The notes beneath the pieces are model-generated. The model made no database searches, was not told where the DNA came from, and was given only the letters and a program-made list of their open reading frames with translations. This document shows positions 34,107-63,487 of a stretch of DNA of 64,000 bases, piece after piece. The position numbers and the translations under genes were made by a program. This DNA is from Polytrichum commune (Eukaryota > Streptophyta > Polytrichopsida > Polytrichales > Polytrichaceae), in NCBI GenBank assembly GCA_950295325.1, contig OX485804.1, forward strand, positions 2,914,001-2,978,000, read 5' to 3'. Within the stretch, counting starts at the first letter, position 1, and every line of letters begins with the position of its first letter.

Positions 34107-34359
34107 CACTATATTCGTTAATTTGAGACTTTCTCTTGTCTCAAATTAATATATGGACCACAACAACATGGTCTAATGTTTGGGTCATCCTACCTAAACC
34201 ATCTTGATATGAGTTCTTAATTGGGTTCTTGATATGAACACCCGCTTCAAAGTATTTGCATCTTACAACATTCTCCAATATCTGTGTGATTTTATCCACG
34301 TTCTTATATTTGTAACTGTCTCAAAATGCCAAAAAAGTCCCAAATTAACGAATATAATG
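34107..34359. mobile_element. Non-autonomous element, CACTATATTCG family, full copy
   Basis: The left end CACTATATTCGTTAATTTGA and the right end AAATTAACGAATATAATG are inverted complements. A subterminal hairpin TTTGAGAC...GTCTCAAATTAATA follows the left end. The same 60-bp left block recurs at 57774 and 63124. Outside ATCAC...TGAT the flanks ACA/ACA may be a duplication. Confidence 0.65.
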
Positions 34360-34777
34360 ATACATGGAAGAGGTGTTGATGATGACATGAAGAGGCGGGG
34401 GTAAAGCTTGTACAATATCTTGGTTTGATATTATCAATACAAGTAGTTTGTGTGTTTTGTTTGTTTTGTAATTGTTAGACGTGACAACTTTAATGATGCA
34501 TCTCTGAAATGATGCTATAATTAAAAGTTTCACTTAGTCCACTAATATATCAAGAGGTTGGAGAATGTTGGGAGCCTAAGACCATGTACCTGGCATAACA
34601 CCTTGTTGTTGAATATAATGTTTGCAGCTGAAGGGTCTGAAGCGGAATCCACCATTGGAGGACTTGAGTGAGGGTAACAATTTAATCGGCATGCGCGATC
34701 TCTGGTGAGAGTGTTGTGTGATGGAACGAAAGCCGGAGATTCCACATGTCAACGTTGGTTTTACAGGGTGAATGAGT

Positions 34778-35891: not shown

Positions 35892-37167
35892 GTTCTAGGA
35901 TCAAGCATGGAGATTGATTTATATTGGTATAAAAAAGGAATCAACAATAAGTGGACCTACAATCTTACGCATCATTTGGTGGTAGATTTAGAAACCAAAA
36001 TTACATTAGCTTCTATGACATATATTGTAGACTTAGATGCTTATGAGTTACATCCGGGAATGGAAAAGTCTTAAATGACTTTATCAATGGATGTTAGGGT
36101 TTAACATGATACATATGATAGCGTTTCATTATTATTCAATATTATATTTGTATACTTATGTTAATCATGACTATATATGAAATTAATTTTGTTAATAGAT
36201 GGATATTTTCACTTGCATTTTTATTATTGAAATTGTACGTGTATTGCTTGATTTTACCAAAAAATTAACATAAAAAAACTAGTGTATAGGGGGGTTTTAG
36301 AATGTTGCAAACACACGTGGTCCTTGGTTTTTAATGAAAGGTGCAACCCTAGGGTGAGGGATTACGCTAATCATGCTTATCATGCCATGGGTTGGGTGAC
36401 TTTATCACCTTGGAGCAACTAAGATTGTGTAATTGCAAGCTCCAAAACAGTTGCGTAACCTTGTTAAAAAGCTCACTGATTTGCAAGATATTTGACATCT
36501 TTAGCTGTGAGTTTATTAGAGCAGTGTGGGGAGTCCATTATCATGTGTTTAATGCAAGTCAATAACATCATATTAAACATTATGGGACTTTTGGGAGTCC
36601 CAAAATTGCAAAACATGTACATTTTGACCAAAATTCTACGTGGGAACGTGAATGGGAACGTGCATGGGAACTTGCCAAAGATTATGTGCGTGTGTATGGG
36701 AACGTAGGAACACGGGGGGGGGGGGGGCACTCAATTGGGAACGTCAATACGAGGAGTATGGACGAGATTGGGGAACTTCTATGGGAACCATGGCACATGG
36801 CTGGGCCATAACGTTCGCCAATGTACACCACTTACACACGATATTCGTGATATTCATAAATAGTTGCCTGCGTACAAATTTTCACAGCACATACGTACAG
36901 TGTCCCACCGCACATGTTTGAAATTGCGGGGAAGTTAGGGTTGAAGCTCCCTACATTGAGGTCTGAAAATCCATACATTAATGGGACCACACCATGCATG
37001 ATGATATGACATTGGTTGAAATTTGCACATATAGCAATTAAGGTCGTATCGACAAAAAAATGAGATGTTTGGTTCCAAACGTGCTGCCCTATCACCTACA
37101 GCAGATCACTAGGGTCTTGACACTCGCTCTACTAATCCCGTATCACCTTCAATTCCAGTGTCTTTGA
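35892..37167. other. No gene; G-run and a partial hAT-like MITE end
   Basis: Near 36285-36350, the sequence AGGGGGGTTTTAGAATG...CACACGTGGTCCTTGG...GGTGCAACCCTAGGG resembles the right end of the 12667-13080 element, but the left end was not found. A run of about 15 G lies at 36713-36727. A 90-codon plus ORF at 35802-36074 has no recognised motif. Confidence 0.4.
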
Positions 37168-39150
37168 TCACCGGGATGCGCGTCCCCCAGATTTACGTCT
37201 ACCACCTCCATGTCCACGGCCCCCTCGTTGCCCACTAGACTCCCCGTCGTCCCGCCCACCCTCCCTGTTCCCACGCTCGGCTGTTGAACACCGTCGAAGA
37301 TTATCTTTGGCAAAACCAATTTGCTCTGCTGGGATAGTAACCTTTAATGGCTCCACATCTTCCTGTGCTGGCAGAGGCCAGGCTGCCAAAATGCAATCGA
37401 TCGGCTGCCAGTCGGAAACGGAGTATTTCAAATCTCGTTTCCACTTGAAGTTTGGGTTTGAGTCCCAACCATTCCATTTCTTTGAAAGGTCCCTCGCGGT
37501 TGAAGTGGGAGTGAACCACTGTACAAGTATTTGACGTGGATGATCTCCCGTGACCGCCAAGTTCGGTACAGACACAGCCCGGCATACCCAAATGGGTCTA
37601 TCTATATCTTGTTCTTGGGGACGCAATATTAGCATATGCCCCTCGTGCACATTCTCTGCGATGCGGAAAGCTGCTGCAGGACGAAGGTTTGCTGGACCAA
37701 CATAATGGTCGTCCGGTTGGTGCTCTTCCCGAAGCTCTCCGTTCTGCAAGAAGGGATGTGCATCTGCTTCGACTCTACTTCGTGGCCAGAATCCCTCGCA
37801 TAATGGCAGCCCAACAGTGTATACGTTTCTGAGGGGTGCATCTAATGCCTCCTTCACCCCTATCCAATATTGCAAAATATGCATGTGTGAACCCATATAT
37901 GCTCCTGTTGTGTCATGGTCACATATTGATTGCCAATAATCAATGAACCCTTGCAATCCCACAAGAACCTCCTCCAGCTTGGCCATACCTCGCGGTGGTG
38001 CAGGAAAAGGGTCCCCGGATGGAATACATGGCTCCCCTTTTATATTTGATTTCCACATCTTCACACCGTCTTTGGGCAACCACTCCCCATGCGTGCTTAG
38101 CACTTTGTATTGCATAACTGGCCAACCATCATCTCGGACATAGAATTTGAACTATTGAGCCTTGGTGTGCCCAATGAGTTTCTCCTTACCACTTGGGATA
38201 TGCTCGCTGACGAATGTTCTCCAATCTGGAAGTTCCTCTATCATGTGCGGAATGACATGAACCTTTTCCATGTCCATGTATGATTTCATAAGAAGGGGTA
38301 TAGTGGGATAGTCGTGTTCACGCAGGTCCATACCCCACCTTCCAAATGATGCATCGATGTCATCATGGGTGTGGCCAACCAATAGATAAGATACATGTAC
38401 CTCCGTGAATATTGCTTTCGCCGTGAGCATAGACCAAAATGCCTTTACAAACCTACACTTGTTGTCCTTCCAACAATTATCAAGCTGAACATGCAGAATG
38501 GGTGGAAGAGGAACTGCAGGTGTGGGCTCCGTGGGTGGGGGTTGTAATCCTCCCAAACATACTTCGCTCCCATTGAGAACAACACAATACAGAGGTGCAC
38601 GCCCGAAACCATGAAAAAAACGTTGGGATGATGATATGGGAGGTTCCTCCAAATCGCGTAAAAGTCTCGCGAATGAGCCCACAGTATGGTTGCAATCTCC
38701 AGGGTACATGTCCAGTGCATAGTGCACATATCTCTCATCTCCATATCCATGGGCCATCATGCCTGTTACAGAAAGTGGTAGCTTTATAAACATATCGGTG
38801 TCTTTGTTCTTGGAAGCAAAGCAAGGCGATGCGGTTTTGCCATGGTCCATTTCGTCGTGGATAATCGTCAACACCTTTTGGGGATGCTCAATTGAAAGAG
38901 CCCTCATACATCGGTAAGCGTTGCAAGCCGATTCTTGTTGTGCTAGGTGTTTTTCCAATTGTTTCGAAAACCCTGTGTGTGCGGCTGAACCTTTCACATG
39001 TTGAAGTATAATTGCGGACAACGAATCACACTTCCCACAACGCGCAAAATTATCACCAACCCTCTTCTTTATGTAGTGCTTAAAGTAGGTATTTCGAATT
39101 TTGCTCAGAGTTGAAATAGATATTGGGAGCACTCCGCATTTGTCATTCAC

Positions 39151-39326
39151 CTGCCCATATAGTATTAGTATAACATTAATAATACTTCACATGAACCATG
39201 AACCAAAGTGTATGAAATACGTTCATAATTGCCCCCTCGTGTCTATTAATTATACACAAACCCAACTCGATTGAATGTTTGATCTCCACTATCAATGCGG
39301 GTAATTGGACTATACCAATTGCATAC
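39151..39326 (-). other. Intron unique to the left gene
   Basis: Donor GAG|GTATGC and acceptor GGGCAG|GTGAAT join INE to VNDKCGVLPIS, restoring colinearity with the right paralogue, which is continuous here (DVNAVGEKAGLDPIS). 176 nt. Confidence 0.75.
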
Positions 39327-40286
39327 CTCATTGATTGTAACCAAGAACTTCTTCCATTTGGTTCCGCGAGGCAAGACCATTTCTACAACTCGTGTACCAT
39401 TTGGCAATGTGCGAGCCTTGTGAGGCATCATATCTGCTTTGTCTTCCAGTAGTATCGAAAATGTGGCTGTAGCTTGCTGGGTGGATGTTCGATTCCTTTT
39501 CTTATTTAGGTTCCCATGATCACGTGGACGCATACCATTCTTGAATTCCGACCGGTTTATGTAGAACGTCGTTTTCGAGACGGCAAATATGTGTCTCCAT
39601 GCCTTTTCGCAGACATTGCGCCCACTCAAGGTAACAACTTTCGTTGAACTTACAGGTAGTACATGTAATTGGCCATGGACTTCGAGTTGCTTAACATGTC
39701 TCATCCGTGGCGAACAAGTGTAGAACTCCGTTCGTAGCGCAAGTGCCTCTTCCCTGGGAAAATATCAAGTGCACTCCCTATCACAACACACGCTAGCAAA
39801 TAGTTGGTGGATGCTATTATTATTGAGAATCTGCGATTTCTTTGTCGGTCTGTTCTGCGGCGTCGTGCGTGATGTTACATATGCCCTCTTCCCCTCTTTC
39901 TTACGTCTTTCTAGCAACGTGTTTTGCACACACAACCTGCGTGTGCTCACTAGGAGGTGGTGTGCAAGTGTATACCTCTGTTGGAAAACCCGATCAAGAG
40001 GCCATATTCGCAAGGAGAACATCCATCCCATGTCCATCATTCCCTCTAATGGCTCCATAATAAGCACACCAACATTGTCTATTCCTAGACATTTGTCTTC
40101 CACACAATCCATCGGATTGACGTTGCAGCAGATTCCTTTTGCCACATTTTGTCCACTCACATTTACAAGCATCACAAGACTATGCAGCCATTCCTCCCTT
40201 CTCAGCCCGCTGCAGTCTACATCAATATCCTCTATGCCAGCATCAGTGTCGTCTTCCGTGAACACCGCTTCAGATAGTGAAGATCC

Positions 40287-40382
40287 CTGCATCGTATTAT
40301 CAGGTAAGTATGTTTGCCCGTACTCATGTCAGATACCACAATATGAAGTTACATCACATTGCAAAGTGGGGCAGTAACTGAC
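40287..40382 (-). other. Predicted first intron of the left gene
   Basis: On the minus strand the exon ends GAGGAG before GTCAGT, and the acceptor is GATGCAG before GGATCT. Both sides are in phase 0, joining MEQPEVEHLSSEE to GSSLSEAVFTEDD. Without this splice the second exon could instead start at its own ATG (40292). Confidence 0.5.
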
Positions 40383-41062: not shown

Positions 41063-41478
41063 TTCTTCTCGGCGGAGAGGAACTTGGCGTGGAGATTCCT
41101 CTCGGCCGAGAGGAAACTTCTCTCCATGGTCTTTACACCCCGCGGGCGCGTGACTGGGACTAGCGGACCATGTCCAATTGCTGATCACATGGAACAGTTC
41201 TCCACTTCAGTCTTCAAAGTTCTCATTTGGATTTAGGTTGGAGCGCAGTTTGGCACCGTAACTCGGCTTTCGGTTCATCCCGCGTCGCCAGTTGTGATAA
41301 CAAAAAATGGCCCAATTGGAGCTCTCATTCGGTGCCAGGGTACAGGGTGTCGGGTTTCCTCTCGGCCGAGAGGAAACTTGGTGCCAGGGTGAAGGGTGTG
41401 AGTTTTCCTCTCGGCCGAGAGAAAAACTTAGTGCGAAGGTGAAGGGTGCCAGTTTTCCTCTCGGCCGAGAGGAAACTT
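41063..41478. promoter_or_regulatory. Palindrome array 1, upstream of the left gene
   Basis: Five copies of a palindrome based on arms TTTCCTCTCG and CGAGAGGAAA around a central GC occur near 41063 (degenerate), 41097, 41355, 41404 and 41454. The last three are spaced 49 and 50 bp, with repeated linkers (CTTGGTGCCAGGGTGAAGGG). The array lies 640-1060 bp upstream of the predicted ATG. Arms match arrays 2 and 3 in the plus-strand cluster. Regulatory or recognition role is inferred. Confidence 0.7.
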
Positions 41479-47331: not shown

Positions 47332-48621
47332 CTTCCTCTCGGGCGAGAGGAAGATTTCCCTGGTGGTTCACATTTTAAGAGCCCCCCACCCTAAACACTC
47401 ACACTTGAGGAGGGGGAAAACTTCCTCTCGCCCGAGAGGAAGATTTCCCTGGTGGTTCGCATTTTAAGAGCCCCCCACCCTAAACACTCACACTTGAGGA
47501 GGGGGAAAACTTCCTCTCGGGCGAGAGGAAGATTTCCCTGGTGGTTCGCATTTTAAGAGCCCCCCACCCTCACACTCACACTTGAGGAGGGGGAAAACTT
47601 CCTCTCGCTCGAGAGGAAGTTCTCCCCTGTGCTCTCATTTTAGGAGCCCTCCACACCCTCACACACACTTGAGAGTGAAAACTTCCTCTCGCTCGAGAGG
47701 AAGTTCTTCCCTGCGCTCTCATTTTAAGAGCCCTCCCCACCCTCACACACTGACGTCTCCCTAGCCTACAATCCTTTTTTAAATATTCAAAGATGTCCAT
47801 TCTTCGAGTCATTTCTGTCAATATCGTCATCCTTGCACCAGGCAGAAGCACGTTTCAAATCAAGCTCATTGATGATCACATTACAAAGAACTGGATATTT
47901 GGAACCAAGATGTGTAATTACGGACAATCTTGAGTATGTGCTGTGATGAATGCTTAATAGAGAAGTTTTTGATGGAGCTTGCGGCTAAAATTACTGTGGT
48001 ATGCAAACGTCTTCATACATTATTAATCGATTTTGGTGATTTGTGGTTGGAAAATGGCAGGTTCGTTATCTCAGACAATTTCGCGAGTTGCGATTCCGTT
48101 GCCTTGAATTCAACCCTCTTTGCAAGGTACAAGTTCGACTTCAAGAAAATGATAAAAAAAAAAGGTGTCATTGTTATTTACAACTGATATGTGATGTTTG
48201 TTCATCAATTCCTACTCATGGGGAGCATGGGGGCTGGTTTAATGTTTAATTAGTCTATATTATGTTAGTAAATCAAATATGGATGAATGGATGCATGTCT
48301 TTTATTTTGTTTTTGGTTTCCATCAATTTAGAATGATGTGGGTTAGGTATTCGATGACAAACCCCTATCAACATGACAGCAGGAAAGGGAAAACTTCCTC
48401 TCGACCGAGAGGAAGTTTTCCCCTGCTCTCTCATTTTAAGAGCCCCTCCCAACCCTCACACGCAGACTTGAGGAGAGGAAAAACTTCCTCTCGAGCGAGA
48501 GGAAGTTTTTCCTTGCACACTCATCTTATTAGCCCTCTCCTAACCCTCACTCCCTAGACTTCAATCCACCCCTATCAACATATAGCAGGAAAGGGAAAAC
48601 TTCCTCTCGACCGAGAGGAAG
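47332..48621. promoter_or_regulatory. Palindrome array 2, upstream of the ParB-like gene
   Basis: Eight 22-bp palindromes start at 47332, 47421, 47510, 47598, 47682, 48394, 48484 and 48600. Each has arms CTTCCTCTCG and CGAGAGGAAG around a variable dinucleotide: GG, CC, GG, CT, CT, AC, AG, AC. The first five are spaced about 84-89 bp, with linkers containing CACACTTGAGGAGGGGGAAA. The arms are conserved while the centre varies, which is what a site bound by a symmetric dimer would show. It ends 136 bp before the ATG at 48757. Confidence 0.75.
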
Positions 48622-50256
48622 TTTTCCCTTGCACACTCATCCCTCACATTATGTAAACCCTATTTATCAACGTACGCGATAGCCTCAAGGTGCAAGCTCT
48701 CTCAAGCTTGCTTTATTCCACAAATACTAACCATTTCAATTTGTCTTGCAGGTGACATGGACAAGGAAGTGATATGGACAGACCTTGTTGGGACAATGGA
48801 AATAGGGCAGAACGGTGTCTATTGGGAATTAAAAGACACTCACTTGAGACACTGGTCAATTCAGGTACACAGGAGGGATAAGGAATCTCCGTTAAAACTA
48901 ACCCTCGCATACAGGGTAGGAAAAAATTGGATTCCAAACCCAGGAAACGCAATAACCCTGGCATCGGTCGGCGATCGCGACCAGCTTAATGTATCGGTAC
49001 TCGAAGGACTCGAATAACGCACTTTGTCCATCGACTGCAAAAGGCATAGATTTCACCTGGAGCCATTCACCCAATCAATCGAAATGCTTCCTCCTGCGGA
49101 TAAAGAAGAGATGGAGAGAGTGATGGTCTCCGGTGTATCGAAGAAGGCAATTAACTTCCTTCTTGAAGCAATAGGTGATATCAATTCGAGAGAGGCGAAC
49201 GAAATGGAGGCTCTGAGGACGCAAAAGAAGAAACAAGCGGAGACACTTCTGAAATCTAGGACTGATGATAAGGGGAGTAAGAAGAAGAAACAAAAGAAGC
49301 AGAAACCCGGCGATCAAGATGTTGAAGGAACAAGAGAGGTGGCAAAGAAGCCCAAGAAGGCTTCTAGTGAACTCGTTCCCTTGGCGACGCCTACAAACGC
49401 GACGCCAATTATGCAGAGCCATCCCCAAGAGACATCAGGTGCAAGGAAACCTCCAGCCTCAAAGAGGACTACTGATGAGGAGCGGAAGACAAAACCCAAG
49501 AAGGCAAAGGCTGCGGATGAATCGGAAGAAACCCCACTAGTGCTCACCGCAACAGAGAGGGGCAGAGTCATCGCACATGGCGAGGAACCAAGTCTGGAGG
49601 AAGCTGCAGCGGACCGCAAGAAATTCGTCCAATTATTTGGACACTTATATCCTTTCGGTATCGAGAAAGCTTTTCATGTCCACATAAAGAAGATGTTGAG
49701 CGCAAAGTCGTATGAGGTTACTCGCCCATTGGATGATGCCGGAGTAGTTCTCATGAAGAACTACCTTATACAGACCCCACCAGCGTGGCCCCATCACAAT
49801 CTATGTCTCATGCCAAAACTCAATAAGGGTGAGACATGGAGAGAAGGAATGACCTGGGACGATATCAAGGACGGCAATTTTGTGATCATCAACGGTCAAC
49901 ACAGCGTGGCTGCTTCGAGGCAGATTATAGGGCACAAGGATACAGATCAAGCACTGAAGGATAAATTGAAGATTTGGCCTTGTACGATTGTTTGGACCAA
50001 TGATCCAAACATGACAGTTCGTCTCTCCTATACTCTAAACAACTCTAATTCTTTCAACAAGTTCACTCCTACTTAGACAATACAAATTATGTATTGTCGT
50101 AGGGTGTGGGTGAAACTAGGGAGGCCTTCAAAACAACGGATCAACGCTGTGGGGACAACTATAGACCCCAAAATGAAGGAGGCATGGAAAGTAAGTTTTC
50201 ATACACCCACTCCCATTCCAACTTTTATTTTTGCACTCCCACATGCAGACTCCACT

Positions 50257-50372
50257 CTCCCATCCCTCAATCAAGGCTCAAGGGCTTGAGGGAGGGGAGG
50301 GAACTTCCTCTCGGCCGAGAGGAAGTTCCCTCCCCTCCCTCAAGTCCTTGAGCCTTGATTGAGGGATGGGAG
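50257..50372. repeat. 116-bp near-perfect palindrome
   Basis: The centre lies between 50314 and 50315. Each arm is 58 bp, containing CCTCAATCAAGGCTCAAG, GGAGGGGAGGGAACTTCC and TCTCGG, with one mismatch (G in the left arm at CAAGGGC, facing a T in CAAGTCC). The centre is the array-1/2 palindrome with dinucleotide GC. In RNA it could form a 58-bp stem. Confidence 0.9.
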
Positions 50373-50379
50373 GATTGAT

Positions 50380-50409
50380 GGAACTTCCTCTCGGCCGAGA
50401 GGAAGTTCC
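50380..50409. promoter_or_regulatory. 30-bp perfect palindrome in the same intron
   Basis: GGAACTTCCTCTCGG and its exact complement CCGAGAGGAAGTTCC; central dinucleotide GC as in the neighbouring 116-bp palindrome and array 1. Confidence 0.85.
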
Positions 50410-51859
50410 CTCGCCTCTACCCTCCATTCAAAGTTACTTCAACTTGTGTTCTAACACTTCTCCATTGCAGAATTTCACAACAAGCATGGAGGCTTCATTT
50501 ACCGCCATTGCTAGAGGGATCACCTACAACGACCTTAATGCCGAGCTGGCACTCATCATGGCAGATGATGAGACCTCGAGGATGTGGAAGAAGGTATTTC
50601 AAGGTTACGAGAAGGAGACCCTTATTAACCCGGATAAACCAGGCTCCACCTATTTAGAAGAATACCTAGATACGCAGCAGAAACAACGAGCCCGCCACGA
50701 GAAGAAAAAATCGGCAACACCATTCGAGGAGAAGCCGTATGTTTGTAAGCCATTGACCAAGGAAACTTTCAGGGTGATGGCAGGCCTAACACGGCCCGAC
50801 TATCTTCTGTGTGCGAGACATATCCTCGAGGTGAGGCCTGGCGAAGAGGTTCCTAGAGTCTCTCTCCGAGCCACGAAGAACCACGATGTCACGACCTTGA
50901 AGTCGTGGTGTAATTTTAGGAAGTGGAAGAATATTCTTCTACAAGAGTTGTCAGCACACGACCCAAACGATCTTGGCATTTGGGGAAAGGACTCGGAGGA
51001 CAATGAATGCCTTAATAGATCTGTTTGGGACAAATTCAAGAGGGAGCATAGCATCACAAAGGCCAAATGGGTGAAGCTTTATCAGGTTGCAGGTGATGGT
51101 TGGCTGAATAAGAAGCGGTTGCCGAACTACAAAAAACTGGACCCTACCCCGGCATGCTTACGTTTGTTGCAAGAGTGGCTGCAAACACCGGTAGAAGAGA
51201 GTCAAGGACAAGTGATCACTAGATATGTAGATTATAATCCTCTGAAGCGGAAGTTGGTGATCCCTAACCAGGACAAGGTCGACACTGAATGGCTCTCGAA
51301 GTTCACCATTACAGGGGGCTTCATCGACTTTAGATTCATCCCGGGGTGTGTCGATCAGCCAGTGTCATCTTCGGTGGTCGAGTCCTTGGTGAAGTATGTT
51401 GCGGACCCGGTCTGGGCCCCGGGCCTCAAGAAAATCCCCGCTTGGATGATTGTGTCCGATTTGCGCAACCACCCCGCGGTTGAAGAGTTCATCTCCGCCT
51501 TGATTCGTAAGCACCCGGGGACGTTTCTGAACGTTCCGTCAGTTTATCTACCTTGTCACGCTGAGGATCAAACCTTCAACAAGGAAGTAGATTGGCTGAG
51601 GACTACCCCTCTTTTTTATGTGGACTTCCTCACTTGCCGAAGTATCCTCCCGTGCCACAAGCAGTTTCGATGTCCCATGATAGCGCCTGTAACTCGGCGT
51701 TACAATGTGAACCCGAAGGAGTGGTCGGAGCTTTCATACGAAGCGAACAGAGGCGAGTTGCGAATGGAGGTTTACAACTCGTTTCTCAGCAACCTTGGAA
51801 GCTCGGGAGGAGTTGTGATAAATCTATTCGGCGGGTTGAAGCCTATTGCTGCCGCATTG

Positions 51860-51937
51860 GTGAGTACATACAACATCCGCAACCTTGCTTTTATTCGCAG
51901 GCTTGTTTATCTATTTTGATATTTTTCATGTATACAG
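51860..51937 (+). other. 78-nt intron inside the methyltransferase-like motif
   Basis: Donor GCATTG|GTGAGT, acceptor GTATACAG|ATGAAC, phase 0. Removing it joins KPIAAAL to MNEQHVFSC, completing the Gly-rich-to-Asp motif. Confidence 0.8.
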
Positions 51938-53413
51938 ATGAACGAACAACATGTGTTCTCGTGCATGGACTCTAGCTTCATGCACACGCTTCCCGAGAAG
52001 ATAGATCACGTTCGGCGACTTCGGGCTGTGGACTTTCAAGATGACCAAGAAGACCATGAAACTGCAGGTGACAGAGATGACCACCCTCAACCTCAGCAAG
52101 AAGCACCCCCTGCACTGTTGCTGGAGGATGTCTTGCGAGATCCGTCACCCGGTTTGGACATCGACGCCATGGACGTTGATAGAGACGAATCCGAGGGCGA
52201 GTATGAGGAGCCCGAAGATGACGACGACGACAAAGAGGCGCCTAGTGAACATGATACAGAGGAGGCCTCCAGTAGAGGGGAAAGCGCCCATATGGATACG
52301 CAATCGGATGAATGCGAATCCATTCACACACAATCGCCACAACCATAGTCCGCTTCACCTATGCGCGGCAGGGTCCTGGAATTTGAAGAGGACGAGCATG
52401 TCACCTCTCTAACGGAAGGTGACCCGGCTGAAGACCAGTATCACGACGAGGATCACGAGGGAGATGCCAATGAAGAGCAAGATGCCGAGTACTCGGACCG
52501 TGAGGAGGAGTTTGAGGGAACGCTCGAGGGGGAGCTCGAGGGGGGCCTTGACGACGCACAAGAAGGGGCTTGCGAGGGAGCACAAGAAGAACGAGAGGTG
52601 GCTCAAGGAGAAGATGAGCAGGCTCGTGTTCAAGAGGAGGCCGAAGGTGATGCGGCTGAGCTCACACCCGAAGTGGCAACCACCTCCCGGCCTTCCACGG
52701 CGTCACTTGTATCTGAGAGCGAAGAAGAACTGCCACCGCCCAGTGCCCCAAAATCCAAGGCCTCCAAGCGAGGCAAGCACAAAGATCGGCATACGAAAAG
52801 ACATAGTTCTCGGGTTCCAGAGCCTGTGATAGCGGAGTCTGTATTGGAAGACAAGATTGTGGGGATCTTGAGAAGCACACTGCCCAACATGCTGTCGGGC
52901 TTGCTCCAAGAAGCGTTGGGCCTAGCAAAAAATACCCCCCCTCAGCAAGTGCCTACACCAACACCCACAGTGGATGTTGCAGTCGGTGCAGCCGAGACCG
53001 AAAGGGTGAACGATCAGGTGGGCGCATCGATCCCAGTTGGCGTGCAAGCAGTGGATGTCTCCTGCGTGGATGCAGCACCGACCACCATGGACACCTCCGA
53101 CAAGGCCGAGGTTAGTGTAAGTATTCGATCCCCGTGAACATTTCAGTATGCAAGTTTTTCTGTTCAAGTGACTGAATCTCCACCTGGATGTTTGATCCAG
53201 GTCGGTGATGGCGCAGCATCTTGAAGCTAAAAGTGGACTAGGACGAGTAGAATAAATAGAGTTAGGGGTGTTGATTACCCGGAACTCCTCCCTTGTGGGG
53301 AGGAGATGCAATATGTTCGACCATTTATTATAAATAAAGTGGATTCCTTTGTCTAGCACATGTACTTTCTAGTTTGCATTCAATTGTCCTTAATGATGTC
53401 TTGCAATTCACAG

Positions 53414-55385
53414 GCTTGCCTGCACAACCCAGAACGAGTGGATGCATCACACACTGCAATTTTGTCTATTCAAACGTCACTTACCCCAATCGACGACGAG
53501 CACATCAACCCCTTGCCTATTGTGGTTCCCATACACACTTCGGATGCAGCGGTGGTCACCCGCGCTCCACCCACGGCCCCGTCACCGCTAGAACATGTGC
53601 AAGCTCAGGTTCCATCGCCGCGTATGGCACTCTTGCCGACTGGCATCAAACAAGTGGCAAATTCTACAATTAGTGACATCATTCAAGAAGTTATCCAAGT
53701 GCCACATTCTGCGCAGCCTCCACTTGAGCCCTCACCTTTGGAGGTTGTCCAGCTATCGCCGCAAGGTGTGGATGATGATGTTGCCAATGAAGAGGCTTCA
53801 ACTCCACCCGTGGAGTGCCCTCAAACAAAGCCACAGTCGCATGCGACGGCATCGACGAGTGCTGTCAATGTTATCCCATTGGACTCGTCGAATCCAGAAG
53901 CCACCATAAATGCTCCACAAGCAGTTAGGAGGTATTTGACACGTTGGCCACAAGGCGAGAAGGCTCCCCATCAAGTATTAAACAACGTTAGTTGCCAAGA
54001 TTTCCGGACGACGCACAACAACCAAGACGATCAAAGACGGCGTGCCGAGCTTCTAAAAGTGGTGCCTTCACATGTCAAAGTAAGTTTATTCCATCCAATG
54101 CATTCGTTAAAAGGCACGTTAGTTTCGATTGACATATGTGTATTTCGACCTTTTCACCTCCCCATTTATTTAAATTCGCGTAGTTTTGGGTTCAGGCTCC
54201 ACAGCATTCGATAGCGCCTTTGGATGCGCCTCTACCAAAAGACGTCGTCTATGATAAGCTATTTGTTTACGATGACACATACCCAAAGATCAATAGACCT
54301 TGCCAAGTTTTCACAAGGGAGATGGGAATCGCGTGTGCTAAAAGACTAATGTCTAAGTATCCCGAAGATCCTTCCCTAGGGTACTCTGAGCGATGGGAAT
54401 TCAATCCAATACAGTACGAGGTATTGATCGTGGCCCATTTCTCCCTGTCGTTCGAGTTCGCCCATACCACACGTGGTTTGGAGGACTACACAATGAACTA
54501 CTTAATGGTCTAGTCCATCATGCCTAGGTTTGCGAGGTCATTCTATGTTTAATTTATATGTAGCACATGTCAGAAGCTCACAGTGGGTTCATGTCAGCAG
54601 GCGCCTGCTGCTACACCCAGTCGAAGGTTCATTGTGGTGTTCGATTTAAACGGCATATTTTGCTACTGTTCCCGACGTAACCCGGGTATGGTGACTGTGC
54701 CCACTTGGATAACTTACGATAAAGCACCGGACAAACCTCCGGCCTTGGTAGGGCCCAAGGTTGTCCTACCTAGACTAGGATACAAGGTGTTTTGGTTGCG
54801 GATGTCCTCCATGTTCCATGTTTGCATATGGTCATCCATGAAAAAATCCACTGTAGACCTTGTGGTGGAGTATCTATTTGCCGGGGGCCCAAAACCCGCA
54901 TTAGTACTTGGCCAAGAGGATTGCACCTTGTTCAAGGACATGTGGAACAATGTCGTCATGAACCCTTTGAAGCCAGAAGCCCCTTTGTTTTTGAAAAGTT
55001 ACTCAACAAGTTTTGGTGGCCGCCTATATCCTTCGATTCTGGAAGGATCACAGTTGCACCCTCCAACACCATTCTAGTAGACGATTGCCCTTACAAATCT
55101 GTTTGCAATCCGGACGAGTGTGGTATCTTTCCCAACCCATTCACATCCAATCGGGTGCAAGACGCAGACATGACAAAGGTCCTCCTTCCTTACTTTCAAT
55201 CATTGTTCTACTCACCAATGTTCGACGCACGCGACTTTGTGGTCAGCCGTAGGTTTGGGCAACAACCTGCACGGCATAACGATGCAGTCAAGGTGGCAGT
55301 TTTGAAATCCAACGGGCTTGAAGAAACCGACTCGGAAATTGTAGAAAAGTTGCAAATCGATCGAATAGAAGTAGCAAAGAAATAA
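53414..55385 (+). pseudogene. Pro-rich region plus FCP1-type HAD phosphatase-like domain
   Basis: Exon 53414-54079 (acceptor ATTCACAG, donor AAA|GTAAGT) is Pro/Thr/Ser-rich. Exon from 54196 (acceptor GGTTCAG) gives PKDVVYDKLFVYDD. After an uncertain intron (perhaps 54421-54573) the domain follows: RRFIVVFDLNGIF (54625-54660), YKVFWLRMSSMFHVCIWSS (motif II), ILVDDCPYKSVCNP (55070-55115) and DARDFVVSRRF near the C-terminus, ending at 55385. This is the order of FCP1/NLI-interacting phosphatases. Two oddities: motif I reads DLNG where active members have DxDx[TV], so the second Asp is missing; and the frame changes by -1 near 54975-54995, in runs of C, T and A, so the gene is broken or the base run is misread. 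It may be fused to the upstream gene, since 53116 and 53414 are both phase 0. Confidence 0.6.
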
Positions 55386-55547
55386 GCAGGATTGTATGTC
55401 TAGTAACATTGTATTTTATGGTATCTTCAGCTTCCTCTTGCTGGGTACACACCATCCAGTTCCACGCCATCAGCTTTTGCGTGCCCCACTTCGGGGCTCT
55501 CACGCGGTCCAATAGAGGCGAAACAAGTTTCAGAGTCGCACAACCCA

Positions 55548-56491
55548 ATGGAGGTTTCACCAGTGAAGAACAACTTGCACCATGTGCAATGGACTGATGG
55601 ATCAACTCTGGTAATTTATTATTGTCATTTATTATTATTGTGTCATTTATTGTTTCGACAATGTTATTGTGTAAAGGTTATTGTAATATCAAACACACAT
55701 TTCATTACCAATTCAGGGTCATTAGCATAAGTATACTTGAATCTGTATAAATCCAGACTCGCTTGAGCGTGCATGTGTACGCAATTTTGGTTCAGTTGCT
55801 ACCGCATATGCGAGTTATGAAATCATGATAAGTTGCAAACATATATATGTATGGGTGTATATGTGTATATGTGTATGGGTGTATATGTGTATATGTGTAT
55901 GGGTGCATATGTGTATATGTGTGTATGAGTGTATATGTATGCATGAGTGTATATGTATGCACGAGTGTATGTAAATTAGTAAGCCAAATAAATGCGTGTC
56001 ACTTTGTCACCGTGCAGGGTGTTGATCTCAATATGGAACCCGCAGTGGAAGATTGTGCATCCCCTTGTGAAACATTGCCCGTCCTGCGCTCTATCTCTAC
56101 ACGCGACCACCAAATCTCCCTCATTGAATCAAGAGGCCCTAACTCAAGGGGTGTTCACATGTTACGTGCGGGATTGGCGAGCATTGGCAAAACTTATGAC
56201 CCACAACCTATCACGACCACAGTGCCAACGATTCTTTTGAACGCGCAAGGTGCTGACTTCAATATGAAACCATTGGGACCACCTTCCACCCGCGAGCATC
56301 AAATAGAGCTTATTGAGTCAAGAGGTCCTAATTCAAGAGGCGTCAATCTATTGCATGCGGGGTTGGCTGACCTCGCGACACACACAGAGCACGGTTCGGA
56401 AACGGTTAGCCTCCCCTTGGAAGGCCCAAAACACCACAATCAATGTGATGGACAGATGATTTGTCTGTACCCTAAATATGCTAGAAGTTAA
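55548..56491 (+). CDS. Small protein with a duplicated ~40-residue module
   Basis: A plausible ATG at 55548 (CCCAATGGAGG) opens a 21-codon exon to 55610 (donor CTG|GTAATT). The second exon starts at 56018 (acceptor CACCGTGCAG) and ends at TAA 56491; both phase 0, about 179 residues. The module NMxP...STRxHQIxLIESRGPNSRG followed by GVxxLxAGLA occurs twice, at about 56030-56185 and 56260-56375, so an internal duplication is clear. I do not recognise a family. The first intron contains a GTGTAT minisatellite. No in-frame stop is seen in the second exon, unlike its neighbours. Confidence 0.45.
55848..55975. repeat. GTATATGTGTATGGGT minisatellite
   Basis: Units of GTATATGTGTAT and GTATGGGT repeat through this stretch. 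It opens a false N-terminal extension of the next exon (Tyr/Cys/Val-rich peptide). Confidence 0.9.
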
Positions 56492-57329
56492 ACAATCCCG
56501 TGACCAATTGTGCGGGCATTCATATGTGTACACAATATTTAGTGCAATACTCAATATATAAAAGTGGCCAGACACTCCCAATACCCAACGCATTGTCTTA
56601 TATAAAGTCAGTTCACATGTCAACCATGCTCTCATTTTGCTTACCATATCCACTTGCTTGTTTGCACCCAATGTATGGTTCTTGCTTGTCTTTCGTAAAT
56701 CCATCATCGAGCACTCCCCCATGTATGGGTGGAACATGTAGTGCATAAACGATACGGCGGAAGCTCCATGTGAATGTTTTCGTTCTGTCTTGCATAACTG
56801 CTTCATGGGAAGCTGCCCCTTCATGTAACCTATTTGTCCTGCCCAAACTTTTCTATGACTGGACACAACGCGTAGGGCGCCTTTGTCTTGAATGCACACT
56901 CCCAGAGGAACAACCCATGTGTGCACCATGTAAATCCGCCCTTAAGGTATAGACACCCTATAACCAATAACGATCCCATCACCGACAAGTAGAGTAGCTC
57001 ATAAACGCGCATGGCTTTACTAGAAGTCGTTATGAATATATATAAAACGCGAGGACAATATGACTGGAGGGGAAGTTGTTTCCCATAGATATTGTCGGTC
57101 ATGTGTGAAGCTATGTGTTAGTCATGGGCTCTGACCGACTTTCGCACAAAGAAATTTTACACAATCAATTTTGAAAAAAGGGTCATTATTCATGAACCTT
57201 ATTTTCCTACGCACAAAAAATAACTCCTTGATATTCCAAGATATGCTATGTTGAAATGCTTAAGATTTCGGTTATAGGTATCTGTACCTTACATGTTGAA
57301 GCGTTATTCACACTTGTCCGTACTACTCA
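56492..57329. other. Spacer with a possible small zinc-binding exon
   Basis: On the plus strand at about 56878-56948, RLCLECTLPEEQPMCAPC has a CxxC-x8-CxxC spacing followed by a donor (CTTAAG|GTATAG). It could be an exon of the flanking cluster, but no acceptor or start is convincing. The rest is AT-rich; the minus ORF at 56348-56929 (193 codons) overlaps it antisense and has no recognised motif. Confidence 0.3.
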
Positions 57330-57794
57330 ATGCCGTGTCAGGATGCCCCTCCCAACCCGGCCAGTTCCCCCCCAGCTCCCCAGCCAACTGGGTTCGGGGA
57401 GGTGATTGTGAGAATGCAAACAGCTGAGCTGGAACGCCCGTTAGGCCTCCCAATGGAAAGGAGGAGTATGGACGACGAGTTTAACAACTTAGCTTCAGAT
57501 ATTGATGTGTGCATGGAACGGTTCATGCAACTACAATCATTTATGACCACTGCTTTAGATAGATATAAAGGATGCCGCTTGGTTGGAATGGATGCACACA
57601 TGCTTGGGAGATTGGTGGTATACAGTGCCGATATAGGGCTCACCATCCCACAAGTGGAGGCACTCCAACAACGTCTCCCAGAGTTGCACTTAATAGAGAA
57701 CGATATGTGGGAAGCTACGCAAGCAATCGAGCCCCATTTAGATGACTTACTCCGCCGTGATTCAAAAGACATAACACTAAATTCGTTAAATTGA
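57330..57794 (+). CDS. Helical ORF truncated by an element end
   Basis: ATG 57330, or an exon from 57343 after GTGTCAG. About 154 residues: a Pro-rich start (PNPASSPPAPQP), then heptad-like helices (DIDVCMERFMQLQSFMTTAL, VEALQQRLPELHLIENDMWE). I recognise no family. The last six codons and the stop TGA (57792-57794) lie in an element end that begins at 57774 (CACTAAATTCGTTAAATTGA), so the original C-terminus is probably missing. Orientation and spacing place it as the last gene of the plus cluster, convergent with the right DUF7869-like gene. Confidence 0.45.
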   Translation: MPCQDAPPNPASSPPAPQPTGFGEVIVRMQTAELERPLGLPMERRSMDDEFNNLASDIDVCMERFMQLQSFMTTALDRYKGCRLVGMDAHMLGRLVVYSADIGLTIPQVEALQQRLPELHLIENDMWEATQAIEPHLDDLLRRDSKDITLNSLN

Positions 57795-57833
57795 GACTTT
57801 CTCTAGTCTCAAATTAATATATGGATCAAACAA
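57774..57833 (+). mobile_element. Left end of a CACTATATTCG-family element
   Basis: A 60-bp block CACTAAATTCGTTAAATTGA...GTCTCAAATTAATATATGGA is nearly identical to 63124-63185 and similar to the full copy at 34107. It contains the hairpin TTGAGAC...GTCTCAA. No matching inverted right end was found downstream, so this is a fragment or a diverged longer element. Confidence 0.65.
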
Positions 57834-58304
57834 CATTCCGTGTTCCGAAACTATATTGAGAACGATCTCAAATATATTATATGTTCTAATATCCCAAATC
57901 TATTATGTGTGGACATAAGCACATGTGGTAGAGCACTCAACACCAACTTCATCTACAAAAACACTTTGGGTAGAGCACTCCAAACTAGTTTCACCCAAGA
58001 AACATATAAAATGATTTCTATTATTAGCATGGTCAATAAAATATAGACATTGCAACATACAAAGTGCATGCAATAAATGCATTTTTCTTCAATGGAAAAT
58101 TTAGTCCCAAACTTAATAAAAAAAATGAACTTCACAACTGTATTGAAATATAGTAAATGGATATTCATCCAACCCCAAACAATATAGCATTCGCAAGTTC
58201 TACCCAAACTTTGCCCCAAGTTTGAGGAGCACACATATGAGTAATATATATTCGTCGAATTACATATTACACTATAATCATGCTAACACAATCCTACCAA
58301 CTTC
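57834..58304. other. Convergent intergenic spacer
   Basis: AT-rich 3' flank between the plus cluster and the right minus-strand gene. Two GGTAGAGCACTC phrases occur at 57930 and 57970. No terminator-like feature can be called. Confidence 0.4.
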
Positions 58305-61300
58305 TCATTCAACGTGGGTTGCTTCTTCTGCGATCCGAGCAAGGTTGTCTTTTGCAAAAGTTATGTACTTTTGAGGGATGGACACTGATCCACTATGATT
58401 TTTCCGTGGTTTCCATGCTATGAATATGGAATCTGTATCTACCCAAGATGGACCATGCTCAGAATCCACCTTCCACCGAAAGTTAGGGTTTGTATCCCAG
58501 CCTGTATAATGCCGAACAACATCTTCATTCCGTGCTGTCGGTCGGTAGTACTCTACTTGTATTTGTCGAAAATGAGGGCTGGAAGTTACAAAATTTGGTT
58601 TGGACAAAGCTCTTGCCACCCACACTGGCTTTGCATATGTCTCATCTCCAGGACGCAAAATGAGCATATAACCTTCATGACAATCCACTGCAATGCGGAA
58701 AGATGGTGGCGGACGACTACTAGCAGGCCCCACGTAATGGTCGTCCACATCAAACTCCTCTCGAACCTCTCCATTTCCCAAAAGACTAGCCTCCGAAGCT
58801 TGTACATTGACACGTGTTTGTGGCCAAAACCCATGCCTTAAAGTAAGGGGTGTATCTTGATGAAGGTTTGCCAAAGCGCCACGAACACGTGTCCAATATT
58901 GTATCCAACTTCCGTAACGAAGCCAACACGATCCACCAACATCCGCTACCCTCAAACTCTCCCAATATTGTATGAAGCCTGATATGCCTTTACAAATGTC
59001 CTCCAAATTCTTCATGGGTATTGGTTTGCAAGGCTTAGGCTCTCCGTCAGGCAACATCGTCCTTCCTTCCCCATCAACACGCCATACAAGGAGACCCTCC
59101 GGCGGGCTCTAGTCTTGTGATGTGCACAACAACTTATATTGCATGGCGGGGACACCATCGTCACGCACGTAGAACCGAAATTGTCGTGCCTTCGTATGCC
59201 CGATCAATCGGTGAGCTCCGCTTCGAATATACGGTTCTATAAATGCCTTGAAGTCTGGAACCTCCTCGATCATATGGGGGATTACGGGAATGTTCTCCAA
59301 ATCCATGTACGACTTCATCAACAATGGGATTGTTGGAAAATCCTCCTCGCGCAACTTCATGCTCCACCGCCCAAAGGACGCATCAATGTCATCGTGCGTG
59401 TGGCCTACCAATAGAAAGGACACAAAAACCTCCTTGAAAATGCCTTTCGCAACCAACAACGACCAATATGCAAAAACATATCTACTTTTATTGTCCTTCG
59501 CACAATTGTCCAATTGGACACGCAGAGTTGGGGGCAAATTCTTGGCAATCACATCTTCACTTGGTGGCTCCGGCAATGAGTGCACGCATACATCTCTTCC
59601 ATCCAAGACCGCTTCATATAGAGGTGTTGATCCCGAGTTTTCAAATAACAATCTTGATGAATAGGACGGCGGTTTCTCCAAATCACGTAAAAGCTTTGCA
59701 AATGACCCTATCGTGTGGTTTGAATCCGCCGGATACAAATCAAGAGCATAATGAGCATATTTGACATCACCATGCCCATGTGCAATCATTCCTGCAAAGG
59801 CAACCCAATGGTTTAATATTCAACTATAACACCAAAAAATTCACATGGTGTACATGTATGGCCCCAATTACAAACCTAAACACACAAATTTGTGTTTAGG
59901 TAATGCAATGCAATTGTTATCAAAATCACCTGTAACCGAAACAAGAAGCTTAAAAAGGCCGTCCGTGGCTTTGATTCGATTTGCAAAACATGGTGAGGCT
60001 GTTTTGGCATGGTCCATCTTGTCATGGATGATTGTAAGGACTTCCAAAGGCCTGGAGATGGACAAAGCTCTATTTGTGTAGTAATCATTACGGTGTGCCT
60101 CTTGCATGTTCACATGCTTGAAATAGTTCATTTGATGTGCGGCATAGGACTCTGTCCCCATCGTATGTGCATCTCGAAGGCGTTTCAACTTCTCGCATTT
60201 GGAACAACGGGCAAATTTGTCGCCTCGTCTTTTTGTGATGTATTTGCTAAAGTGAGATTTTTTGATAGCACTCAGTTTCGACAACGAAATTGGGTCCAAC
60301 CCGGCCTTCTCGCCAACTGCGTTTACGTCCAACAATATGTCTTTCCATTTCGTGCCTGTAGGAAGAACCTTCTCCACAACCTTTTCACCGGTTGCGAGTG
60401 TGCGTGTTTTGTGCGGCATTGCATCGGCAAGGGGGACAATGATGGTTGCCAGAGTGGCTGTTGCTTGTCTCGTTGTTTCTCTTGGTTTCTTTAAGCCCAT
60501 GTTCCCATGGTGACAGGCACGGCAGCCTTCATTGGCATACGCGGCTTGTCTATAAAATTTCGCTTTCGACACACCATGAATGGTGTACCATGCCGTACAA
60601 CACACGTCTATGCTCTCAAGGGTGATGACCTTGCGACCCGCTCCGTTCACATGTATCGCCCTATGGACATCAAGTTTTTTGGTGGATCTTAGACGGAAAT
60701 CTCCAAGCCACATTTCTTCACGGATGGCCTTCAATTTATCTCTTGGGAACAATTGGCAACAACGATGTACACAACAATCCTTCGTAGCAACTTCTCTAAT
60801 AGACTCCTCACAGAGCAACCTTTGACGTTTACACTTATTTGCAAACGGAGTAGGACGTGTCAATGTTTCGTACTTCCGAAGGCCTTTGCGTGGCCGAATG
60901 TTTGCTTGGAGCTCCTGTTGGATTTGGACGTGTCGTCGCTCATGGTCGCGCAAGCTAACCCCCTCAATTGTCACATTCCTCAACGGCCACCTTCGCAACG
61001 AGAACCTATGAGTTGGATTAACTTCCGAATGTACGAGTGATTCTAATATAACAACTCCAGCGTCCTCGGTGCCAAGGGGGTGTTCATCAATGCAATCTTA
61101 TGGATGTGTGTTACGACAAATACCCTCCGCCACAGCAACTCCACTGTCATTAACAAGTACCACATCCAAATTCACCCATGAAGCTCGTGAAAGCCCCGCA
61201 CATTCCACAATGGGGCAAAAAGGGTCAGATGTCGAATGACTCCCCAAATGACCTTCATCTGCACTGTCATCAAAACTATCCTCCCCGACAATGTCTAGCT

Positions 61301-61394
61301 CATCCCCAGACAGAGATTGGGTGCTGCCCATGTCTTCAGAGAAGGAATCCCCTCTTCCACCAACTCCCTCCATTACGCCTACACACATGCACAT
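58305..61394 (-). pseudogene. DUF7869-like transposase-type gene, right copy
   Basis: Paralogue of the gene at 37168-40421. Earliest start in frame is ATG 61394; a later ATG (MEGVGG) is possible. Intron 59929-59792, last exon to the stop at 58305. Order: acidic N-region; DCCVHRCCQLFP (Cys-rich, ~60760); FARCSKC (CxxC, ~60190-60220); IHDKMDHAKTASP (~60000-60030); VQLDNCAKDNKSRY (~59490-59530); GHTHDDIDASFGRW (~59365-59405); an SH3-like region (GYMLILRP...KPVWVARAL, ~58600-58690); end ARIAEEATHVE without the Gly/Arg tail of the left copy. The three conserved Asp blocks fit an RNase H-type core with Zn-binding modules. In-frame TAA (61098-61100) and TAG (59109-59111) break it. The TAA faces Met and the TAG probably Trp in the left copy. 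Confidence 0.7.
59792..59929 (-). other. Intron unique to the right gene
   Basis: On the minus strand, donor TTACAG|GTGATT and acceptor CTTTGCAG|GAATGA join SVTG to MIAHGHGD. The left paralogue reads SVTGMMAHGYGD without interruption. 138 nt. Confidence 0.8.
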
Positions 61395-61573
61395 GAAACC
61401 TCAACAAACATGGACACAACGTAAGGGTCCAAAAGAATCAAATATTGGAAAATGCAAAACATCACGATGAATGGGGACACTGAGGATCAAGACATTTGCA
61501 ACACAAATGCAATGTGAGCTCCCAATACTGTGCGCCAGTCCACAAAATGTTCCACAAAATATTTTGGGTGGGA

Positions 61574-62420
61574 GTTTGGGTCGGCCGACCTAAACCATGT
61601 GGCACCAGGGATTGAGGGCCATCCACACCTTGCCCGTGGGATAGGGTCGGGTTCCGGTCGACCGACTCAAACCTTGTACAATGATGGGTTGAGGGCCATT
61701 TAGAATTCCATCACGCTGTGGGGAAAACTTTGGGTCGACCGACCCAATCCTTGTCATGGTCAACTACAACCGCCGAAACTGGGGAAGGGGTTTGGGTCGA
61801 CCGACCCAAACTTTCACAGGGTAAACCCACCCACACTCGGAAGGGGTTTGGGTCGGTCGACCCAAACTTTCACAGTGTAAATCCACCCACACTGGGATGA
61901 GGTTTGGGTCGCTCGACCCAAACATTACATATGATGGGATAAGGTTCCTACTCTGTCCGTCCAAACCTTCTGAGTACCTTGGGTAAGGGCCATTAACAAT
62001 TCGTTCACGATGTGCGAAAAAGTTTGGGTCGACCGACCCAAACCTTCTAAAAGGTTTTACGATAAACGCCCACAGTGGGGTAGGGGTTTGGGTCGACCGA
62101 CCCAAACCTCACAAGGGTCAGAGTAGACCCCCCCCCCCCCCCCAACACTAGTGAAGGGGTTTGGGTCGACCGACCCAAACCTCACAAGGGTCAGAGTAGA
62201 CCCCCCCAACACTAGTGAAGGGGTTTGGGTCGACCGACCCAAACCTCACAAGGGTCAGAGTAGACTCCCCCCAACACTAGTGAAGGGGTTTGGGTCGACC
62301 GACCCAAACCTCACAAGGGTGAGACTAGAACCCGCCCACACTACTGGAGGGGTTTGGGTCGACCGACCCAAACCTCACAAGGGTCAGACTGGAACCCGCC
62401 AACACTAGTGTCGACCGACG
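61574..62420. promoter_or_regulatory. Palindrome array 4, upstream of the right gene
   Basis: Twelve palindromes start at 61574, 61651, 61728, 61790, 61846, 61902, 62022, 62086, 62159, 62223, 62288 and 62352, plus a partial at 62408. Arms are GTTTGGGTCG and CGACCCAAAC around a dinucleotide (mostly AC; GT at 61846, CT at 61902, GC at 61574). The last six units are 64-73 bp apart, with linkers ACCTCACAAGGGTCAGAGTA + GACCCCCCCAACACTAGTG; a C run at 62128-62143 varies in length. It lies 180-1030 bp upstream of the gene start, the same place as array 1 relative to the left gene. Confidence 0.75.
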
Positions 62421-63123: not shown

Positions 63124-63185
63124 TATGTAACACTATATTCGTTAAATTGAGACTTTCTCTAGTCTCAAATTAATATATGGATCAA
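63124..63185 (+). mobile_element. Left end of a CACTATATTCG-family element, second fragment
   Basis: Near-identical to 57774-57833, in the same orientation; the two diverge completely afterwards. No inverted right end was found in the remaining 800 bp. Confidence 0.6.
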
Positions 63186-63487
63186 ACAAAAACTTCTACA
63201 ATGTCACCCTAATGCATCATATACATATTAAATGATGATATTGATCTACTTTAACTCAAACATTACGGTATGGCATTAACCAATATGTAGACAAAAGAAG
63301 TCTAAACATTGTGTAACGCCTTATGGTAAGAGTCACTAAATACAATAGTTAAAGTGGTTATGAAGATCCTCGCAAGGGGAATTATTAATTTTGAAATCAA
63401 ATTATGTCATGACAAAGTTCATTTATTGTTCCAAATCTGAATTTGCAACAATGCAAGTGACAAGAGCTTTTATATATAATATGTTAT

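Follow-up and report, generated by a model that had tools for sequence, protein, structure and literature searches.

Arrays of family-specific palindromes in giant DNA transposons with DUF7869 and ParB-like genes in Polytrichum commune

The nested transposons and their palindromes

We analysed a 64,000-nt stretch of contig OX485804.1 of Polytrichum commune (genome of 408 Mb in 64 contigs), hereafter the window, which contains two giant DNA transposons, e1 and e2, the second inserted in the first. Both carry dense arrays of perfect palindromes of ~22 bp, next to a gene with a DUF7869 domain (a putative transposase) and to a gene with a ParB-like domain, which in e2 lies past the window edge. 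The features of both elements are given below in window positions; open reading frames are abbreviated as ORFs.

36564-36590, + strand: e1 left terminal inverted repeat AACATCATATTAAACATTATGGGACTT; the boundary is common with the C1 copy, and a small GGGACT/AGTCCC hairpin follows
37168-40328, - strand: e1 DUF7869 gene, encoding a putative transposase and spread across several ORFs (PF25273, E=1e-35 on 38152-39186)
41095-41475, no strand: e1 array A, 4 palindromes of the TTCCTCTCGGCCGAGAGGAA type, upstream of the DUF7869 gene
47332-47703, no strand: e1 array B1, 5 perfect CTTCCTCTCG-NN-CGAGAGGAAG sites at a spacing of 84-89 bp, upstream of the ParB-like gene
48394-48621, no strand: e1 array B2, 3 perfect sites, upstream of the ParB-like gene
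48757-50076, + strand: first large coding part of the e1 gene with the probable ParB/Srx-fold domain, motif NGQHS, homologous to the proteins of e2 and of families F3, F4 and F5 (the fold evidence comes from the e2 homologue)
50191-50470, + strand: e1 putative intron with splice-type borders (GTAAGT ... TTGCAG), which holds array C
50304-50405, no strand: e1 array C, 2 sites with the centre GC, inside the putative intron
50486-51919, + strand: second conserved domain (‘MT-like’) of the e1 ParB-like gene, recognised by similarity to the e2 domain
54553-55385, + strand: e1 ORFs resembling NIF/FCP1-type phosphatases (PF03031, E=6.1e-4 and 0.028, both below the cut-off)
57300-57772, + strand: last ORF of e1, interrupted by e2 and continuous in the C1 copy
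57773-57799, + strand: e2 left terminal inverted repeat AACACTAAATTCGTTAAATTGAGACTT, the start being common to other copies
58305-61400, - strand: e2 DUF7869 gene, putative transposase, broken into ORFs in the window copy (PF25273, E=4.8e-43)
61574-62373, no strand: e2 array A, 12 sites (9 perfect) of GTTTGGGTCG-NN-CGACCCAAAC, upstream of the DUF7869 gene

The palindromes of the window are real and far from chance. The pattern CTTCCTCTCG-NN-CGAGAGGAAG is found at 14 window places and GTTTGGGTCG-NN-CGACCCAAAC at 13 (9 of them perfect) when up to 3 mismatches are allowed, and 100 shuffles give an expectation of 0 for either pattern; the existence of two palindrome families, claimed in an earlier sequence-only reading of this DNA, is thereby confirmed. 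Ten perfect places of the first pattern are located at 47332-50405 and four variants at 41095-41475, outside the range which that reading covered. The second pattern forms the array at 61574-62373 (12 places) and has a single stray at 34178. Together the arrays of the two patterns contain 26 copies, close to the 27 or so previously estimated. Counting every perfect palindrome whose arms reach 10 bases or more around a 2-bp centre, the window contains 21, against a mean of 0.12 and a maximum of 2 in 100 dinucleotide shuffles, and none is found in window bases 1-34000. The copies at 41095-41475, 50304 and 50384 read as unbroken palindromes because their centre is GC, and the first site of array C is embedded in a 60-base perfect palindrome (50285-50344). 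The degree of arm conservation (perfect arms of 9-29 bp) is predetermined by the way sites were selected and is not used as evidence. Tandem repeats with units of 278, 78 and 260 bp are also present in the window (3556-4349, 4555-4945 and 19977-20745, respectively), without palindromes of the kind studied here.

Element e1 starts at 36564, is broken at 57773 by e2 and has a length of ~21.7 kb in the C1 copy. From 36564 to the start of e2, the three longest blocks aligned between the window and the C1 copy (L005-L007) are 96-97% identical. Other e1 copies continue to a right end which is an inverted match of the left end, and 4-bp target duplications are seen at the copies of C1:15.66 Mb (GGAT) and C1:57.8 Mb (AATG). 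Element e2, inserted within the last ORF of e1, is ~15.9 kb long, with both ends and the duplication AACA present in the C6 copy; in all 21 of the 21 other e2 copies scored the start falls at window 57762-57776, with an identity of 96-98%. Inverted ends and a 4-bp target duplication are found in three of the three e1 and e2 copies in which both ends were read (GGAT, AATG, AACA), and both elements are, by their terminal inverted repeats and target-site duplications, cut-and-paste DNA transposons. The layouts of e1 and e2 are related and their DNA is diverged: in the translated comparison the main blocks of the DUF7869 genes are 48-56% identical, and the similarity of the ParB-like and second domains is weaker. 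The window copies show decay, as the ParB-like gene of e1 contains stops and the DUF7869 ORFs of e2 are longer in the C6 copy. Past the window edge e2 extends to further arrays at its ParB-like gene (L001, L010).

Some further observations concern e2 and its copies. A short element at window 34104-34360, seen by eye, has inverted ends like the e2 terminal repeat (CACTATATTCGTTAATTTGAGAC) and is probably non-autonomous. The e2 terminal repeat also occurs internally, at window 63128-63189 (98% over 62 bp), with the plant telomere motif CCCTAAA in short runs nearby. From about position 2400 of L010 onward (C2:2984900) the e2 of the window diverges from the C6 copy, and ORFs which by eye resemble retrotransposon gag follow. 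Three equal-scoring e2 ParB genes are found at C3:10603590, 10687365 and 10771207, at a spacing of ~83.8 kb shared by the e2 copies, which suggests a large tandem segmental duplication. In L012 (C4:4565500-4575499) an e2 stretch with arrays and the ParB-like gene repeats at 5.3 kb, which suggests a local tandem duplication.

Further families, array positions and site conservation

The DUF7869 domain (PF25273) is matched with 123.5 bits in e1 and 147.4 bits in e2, the curated cut-off being 26. In the genome-wide search 150 matches were scored of 1,490 candidates, as the protein and family searches score the best candidates only, and ten loci among the 150 listed were sampled for diverse ORF length and score. 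Sites are present in the first-examined stretch at eight of the ten loci (L013-L017, L019 and L021, and L020 with 2 sites only). At L018 the first stretch lacks them, and the candidacy of this locus as an array-free family was rejected: a code of the F5 type lies 7.4 kb upstream (L033), adjoining a ParB-like gene which is 95% identical to that of F5 over 352 residues. The sample adds three families, F3-F5, which possess the same layout (~10-bp arms and a 2-bp centre) with other arms, namely CCCACGGG(T/C)G (L013, L014, L015, L021), TTTACGGACG (L016, L017) and GGGTGAGGCA (L019, L020). Identity of the DUF7869 proteins to that of e2 is 45-66% across parts (62% and 45% for two parts of e1). Genome-wide, the numbers of perfect sites are 284 for e1, 9,731 for e2, 1,063 for F3, 1,310 for F4 and 155 for F5; control patterns made by reversal, which are palindromes of equal composition, are found 0 times in the genome for all five codes. 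A different palindrome array, GAGGCCTCGG-AT-CCGAGGCCTC, adjoins an F4 element (L027 165-1414, C7:5152164-5153413), and one similar copy is present in L030.

The cores of the further DUF7869 families are GTG/GCG, ACG and GCA. Because these families use other cores in the same layout, TCG-NN-CGA is not the common rule, and the idea of a universal TCG-NN-CGA core is rejected. The shared architecture proposed from the window alone therefore stands as regards arm length and the 2-bp-centre layout, which hold across families, and falls as regards the core, which arms elsewhere had been expected to keep and which does not extend beyond e1 and e2.

Families e1, e2, F3 and F4 have an array upstream of the DUF7869 gene, and F5 has one array between the DUF7869 and ParB-like genes, nearer the latter. 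Upstream of the ParB-like gene an array is found in five of the five families; in F3 it is located ~1 kb past the matched part of a gene whose start is undefined. The F3 case contains no ParB-like match in the first 20 kb, and its matches to the ParB-like (E 9e-11) and MT-like (E 1e-15) proteins, on the expected strand, are found in the stretch past the distal array. Sites between the exons of the ParB-like gene are present in e1, e2 and F4. In F4 they occupy the gaps that separate the ParB exon, the second-domain exon and the following ORF, and one e2 site has its start 9 bases away from that of GTGAGT, a putative splice donor. F3 has sites after the second-domain match and none between the ParB and second-domain matches, and no site is found inside the gene stretch of F5 (L025). 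Relative to the left end, the first array of e1 lies at 4.5 kb and the rest at 10.8 kb or more; the first array of e2 lies at 3.8 kb, and the last ~3 kb from the right end (C6 copy).

These positions bear on the possibility that the DUF7869 protein itself binds the palindromes for the assembly of a transposition complex, in the manner of the subterminal repeats of CACTA elements. The arrays near the DUF7869 gene and the discovery of the extra families via DUF7869 loci are in line with it, but the arrays of e1 and e2 are distant from the ends and track gene starts and introns, and we regard this explanation as improbable.

The conservation of the sites themselves is apparent in L037, which is 91.7% identical to e1 over 144 DUF7869 residues and 86.5% identical over 1.7 kb of DNA. 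The sites of its array are retained, and blastn aligns little else there, the longest piece being 46 bp. They retain TTCCTCTCG-NN-CGAGAGGAA; at the tenth base the pair is G with C, against T/C with A/G in e1, and one site shows an inner pair altered on both arms. The e2 site likewise occurs in units of ~32, 57, 64 and 78 bp and of 45 bp. A neutral origin, in which satellites grow within transposons and the palindromes are passively copied, would agree with the fixed tandem periods of several arrays and with a copy number that varies between elements. It is nevertheless disfavoured and, of all the explanations considered, has the least to recommend it: the e2 site recurs at these unlike spacings, L037 keeps the site where little else aligns, and families with different arms use the same positions. 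The earlier suggestion of sites of the symmetric-dimer type rather than satellite drift is supported.

Concerning the two central bases, a pyrimidine-purine centre is found in 0/23 sites of e1, 0/107 of e2, 0/33 of F3, 13/13 of F4 and 13/13 of F5, where these counts, like those of arm changes, include tandem copies and the local duplication of L012 and are not independent. By eye, the first 100 listed sites of every code fit the same centre classes. The centre had been described as variable; within each family it instead keeps to a single class of dinucleotide step, a restriction which recognition of this step by a protein would predict. That the arrays act as RNA, forming stems in 5' leaders and introns which serve as decoys, small-RNA sources or processing signals, would suit perfect arms of 9-29 bp and arrays in putative introns or near gene starts. 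A hairpin loop leaves the family-specific class of the central step unexplained, and we consider this role very improbable.

The ParB-like protein and the reading of the arrays

A gene with a ParB-like domain containing GQH(S/T/V) is found in e1, e2, F3, F4 and F5, divergent from the DUF7869 gene; identity of the domain to that of e2 is 21-40%. Divergent orientation is seen in 10 of the 11 ParB-DUF7869 pairs within 20 kb, a count based on 19 ParB and 23 DUF7869 matches hand-picked from 150 + 150 and not a census. A first AlphaFold2 (AF2) model of the whole ParB exon has a predicted local distance difference test (pLDDT) score of 40, and PadC is second in its Foldseek list. The model of the e2 domain, built with five family members, has a mean pLDDT of 62 (62-84 by blocks for residues 51-140). 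When 323 chains were re-aligned to it with VIA-align, the thirteen top entries were chains of ParB, Noc, PadC and KorB with Z of 7.4-9.1, followed by sulfiredoxins with Z of 5-6; according to the aligner best Z values of 7-8 are common for models without a clear match, and eight rows exceed 8. The best root-mean-square deviation in the structural alignment is 2.4 over 97 residues. Based on the model, there is moderate evidence for a ParB/Srx fold of the accessory domain, and the guess of a ParB-like gene made from the sequence is borne out to that degree by the top rank of ParB-family chains.

The second (‘MT-like’) domain of e1 and F4 is 30-38% identical to that of e2 and ends in FGG(S/T/L)K...AA. 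A methyltransferase motif read in it by eye found no support. The domain has no Pfam and no convincing PDB sequence match. For the ParB-like and second domains together, searches of Pfam, NCBIfam, PHROGs and PDB sequences gave no convincing family match. A NIF-type phosphatase follows the second domain in e2 (PF03031, E=3.5e-13), and a similar ORF is seen by eye in F4. When 20 ORFs of the elements, whole or in part, were scanned with Pfam, only DUF7869 and NIF exceeded the cut-off. Searches of PDB sequences with DUF7869 gave nothing useful, and scans of viral contigs for DUF7869 and ParB-like proteins led nowhere.

The association of the sites with the elements was assessed for e2 on the first 100 listed sites of its arms, all of them on C1 up to 2.16 Mb. 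Three clusters (C1 616089-626109, 1180628-1190830 and 2115506-2125785) contain 81 of the 100, and each holds a listed ParB-like gene (622217, 1187021 and 2118801, respectively). The tie of the palindromes to DUF7869 and ParB-like genes, as first proposed, is therefore strong as an association and is not exclusive, since 19 of the 100 sites are found elsewhere.

We put at about even the chance that the arrays are family-private docking sites by which each element addresses itself, bound by a dimer that the element encodes and serving anti-silencing or autoregulation. The symmetry of the arms, the family-specific 2-bp centre and the dense regulatory arrays together point to binding of the duplex by a dimer. 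In the proposed mechanism the ~22-bp symmetric site of each family would mark the DNA of that element as its own, and a dimeric element-encoded protein would bind it. The leading candidate is the product of the ParB-like gene, as arrays lie upstream of this gene in five families. Binding may flag the regulatory regions of the element, leading to continued expression or to escape from host silencing, in the way of VANC on VANDAL elements; alternatively, the outcome could be autoregulation of the operator type.

The main rival is that the arrays are plain operators or enhancers, through which a host or element factor drives or represses the two divergent genes with no role in escape from silencing. 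Their upstream and intron positions would fit, and KorB, one of the fold matches, is titled a transcriptional repressor in its entry. On the other hand, a host factor hardly accounts for at least five codes at equal positions, which is also why an element-encoded protein is favoured, and the 16 sites in one array of L004 exceed usual operators. We consider this rival a serious but clearly less probable explanation than docking sites private to each family.

Several results weigh against docking sites read by an element-encoded ParB-like dimer. The 19 remaining e2-arm sites lie in other, smaller clusters. Stretches L029-L031 (5.5-9 kb), with 16 of the 19, contain no DUF7869, ParB-like, MT-like or NIF match. 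Sites of e2 amid other sequence imply either that another repeat borrows them or that their reader is not specific to the element. One of the ten sampled DUF7869 loci has no array in 13 kb, including 6.5 kb of extra upstream sequence (L022/L032). Concerning the protein, Foldseek gives no match to the ParB-like model at E<=0.001 and Pfam finds no ParB domain in the sequence; as models without a true relative often reach a best Z of 7-8, what supports the fold is the set of eight rows exceeding 8, together with the uniformity of the ParB list. The structural model is limited to the ParB/Srx domain, the region after it being of low confidence. Finally, arm changes in the five codes are paired in 27 cases and unpaired in 410, many of the latter counts being from decayed copies and not independent.

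L029-L031 have other repeated sequence in common, and L029, L030 and L031 (C1:2152000-2161000) appear to represent a different repeated element, whose ORFs have e2-code arrays in their vicinity. A second palindrome code, CCCTGTGCGT-TA-ACGCACAGGG, is present in L030 and L031. The match of the L031 repeat ORFs to SWIM is below the cut-off (E=0.076); by eye this repeat gave a Mutator-like impression. A fourth outlying cluster of e2-arm sites is found at C1:462876-462991 (3 sites). By analogy with parS, a bolder form of self-addressing can be imagined, in which the ParB-fold protein would load on the private code and, possibly by clamp spreading, shield the whole element; the codes would diverge so that elements give each other no help, and other repeats would copy the e2 code to borrow the protection. 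We hold this to be rather unlikely.

Comparison with known systems

The VANDAL elements of Arabidopsis, which belong to the Mutator-like class, offer the closest parallel to family-private docking sites. Targets of VANC21 are tandem repeats upstream of VANA21 and in the introns of VANB21 and VANC21, and binding of VANC was demonstrated by chromatin immunoprecipitation (ChIP) and electrophoretic mobility shift assay (EMSA) (PMC5735166). As in the elements described here, the motifs are short and family-specific and form dense tandem noncoding arrays, both ahead of the transposase gene and within accessory introns; the arrays quickly gain and lose repeats, and the accessory protein is less conserved than the transposase (PMC5735166, PMC10398659). 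There are also differences: the VANDAL motif is 9 bp long and directional whereas the sites here are perfect palindromes of ~22 bp, and VANC contains DUF1985 (PMC5735166) whereas here a DUF7869 gene is accompanied by an accessory protein with a probable ParB/Srx fold. Arrays in P. commune are placed as in VANDALs, upstream in five families and in introns in three, and neither a Mutator-like transposase nor DUF1985 is found in the Pfam scans of the 20 element ORFs or parts. VANC is the nearest functional analogue, and it is from this analogy that we infer a possible anti-silencing role.

A 4-bp target duplication fits Sola elements. The nearest structural relative found in print is Sola1-1_Ec32 of Ectocarpus, a giant DNA transposon of 21.5 kb with a ParB + DNA-methyltransferase gene, and its authors suggest for proteins of this kind a possible role in binding and modifying the transposon that encodes them (PMC12477816). 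Giant size and a ParB-like accessory gene on the strand opposite the transposase are common to it and the elements studied here; it differs in that palindrome arrays are not mentioned, the string ‘palindrom’ being found 0 times in the available text (PMC12477816).

With the bacterial ParB-parS, Noc and KorB systems the elements share, by the model, the ParB/Srx fold. Bacterial ParB-type sites are short palindromes, often several per region, and a motif of the GxxRR type is typical of ParB. Here the sites are longer and family-dependent, and the position of the motif reads GQHS, GQHT or GQHV. A further parallel is offered by the ParB-methylase fusions of phages and plasmids and by polyvalent proteins, in which ParB domains are joined to DNA methylases in prokaryotes and their selfish elements. 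These systems are prokaryotic, their ParB domains are described as nucleases or NTPases, and no palindrome arrays are mentioned in the available portion of their description (PMC5512222).

Short-site arrays within a plant DNA transposon also recall CACTA/EnSpm. Those elements have CACTA termini, a 3-bp duplication and subterminal arrays of short binding sites. Membership in this group was rejected for e1 and e2, as the termini begin with AAC..., the duplications are of 4 bp and no array comes nearer to the left end than 4.5 kb in e1 or 3.8 kb in e2.

In the open-licence literature no paper on DUF7869 was found, nor any family-private palindrome codes or arrays for such elements in the parts of those sources available. 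The e1/e2-type elements look like a novel variety of giant transposons with ParB-type accessory genes. Self-addressing by private palindromes would suggest a possible role for the ParB/methyltransferase genes of algal transposons, whose DNA targets are not named in the accessible description (PMC12477816). A single genome with five or more codes and a candidate reader for each would offer a specificity panel for self/non-self recognition and for the joint change of protein and site. If this reading is true, the elements of P. commune represent, after the VANDALs, a second and independent case of transposon family-private DNA addresses, with another site symmetry and a ParB-fold protein.

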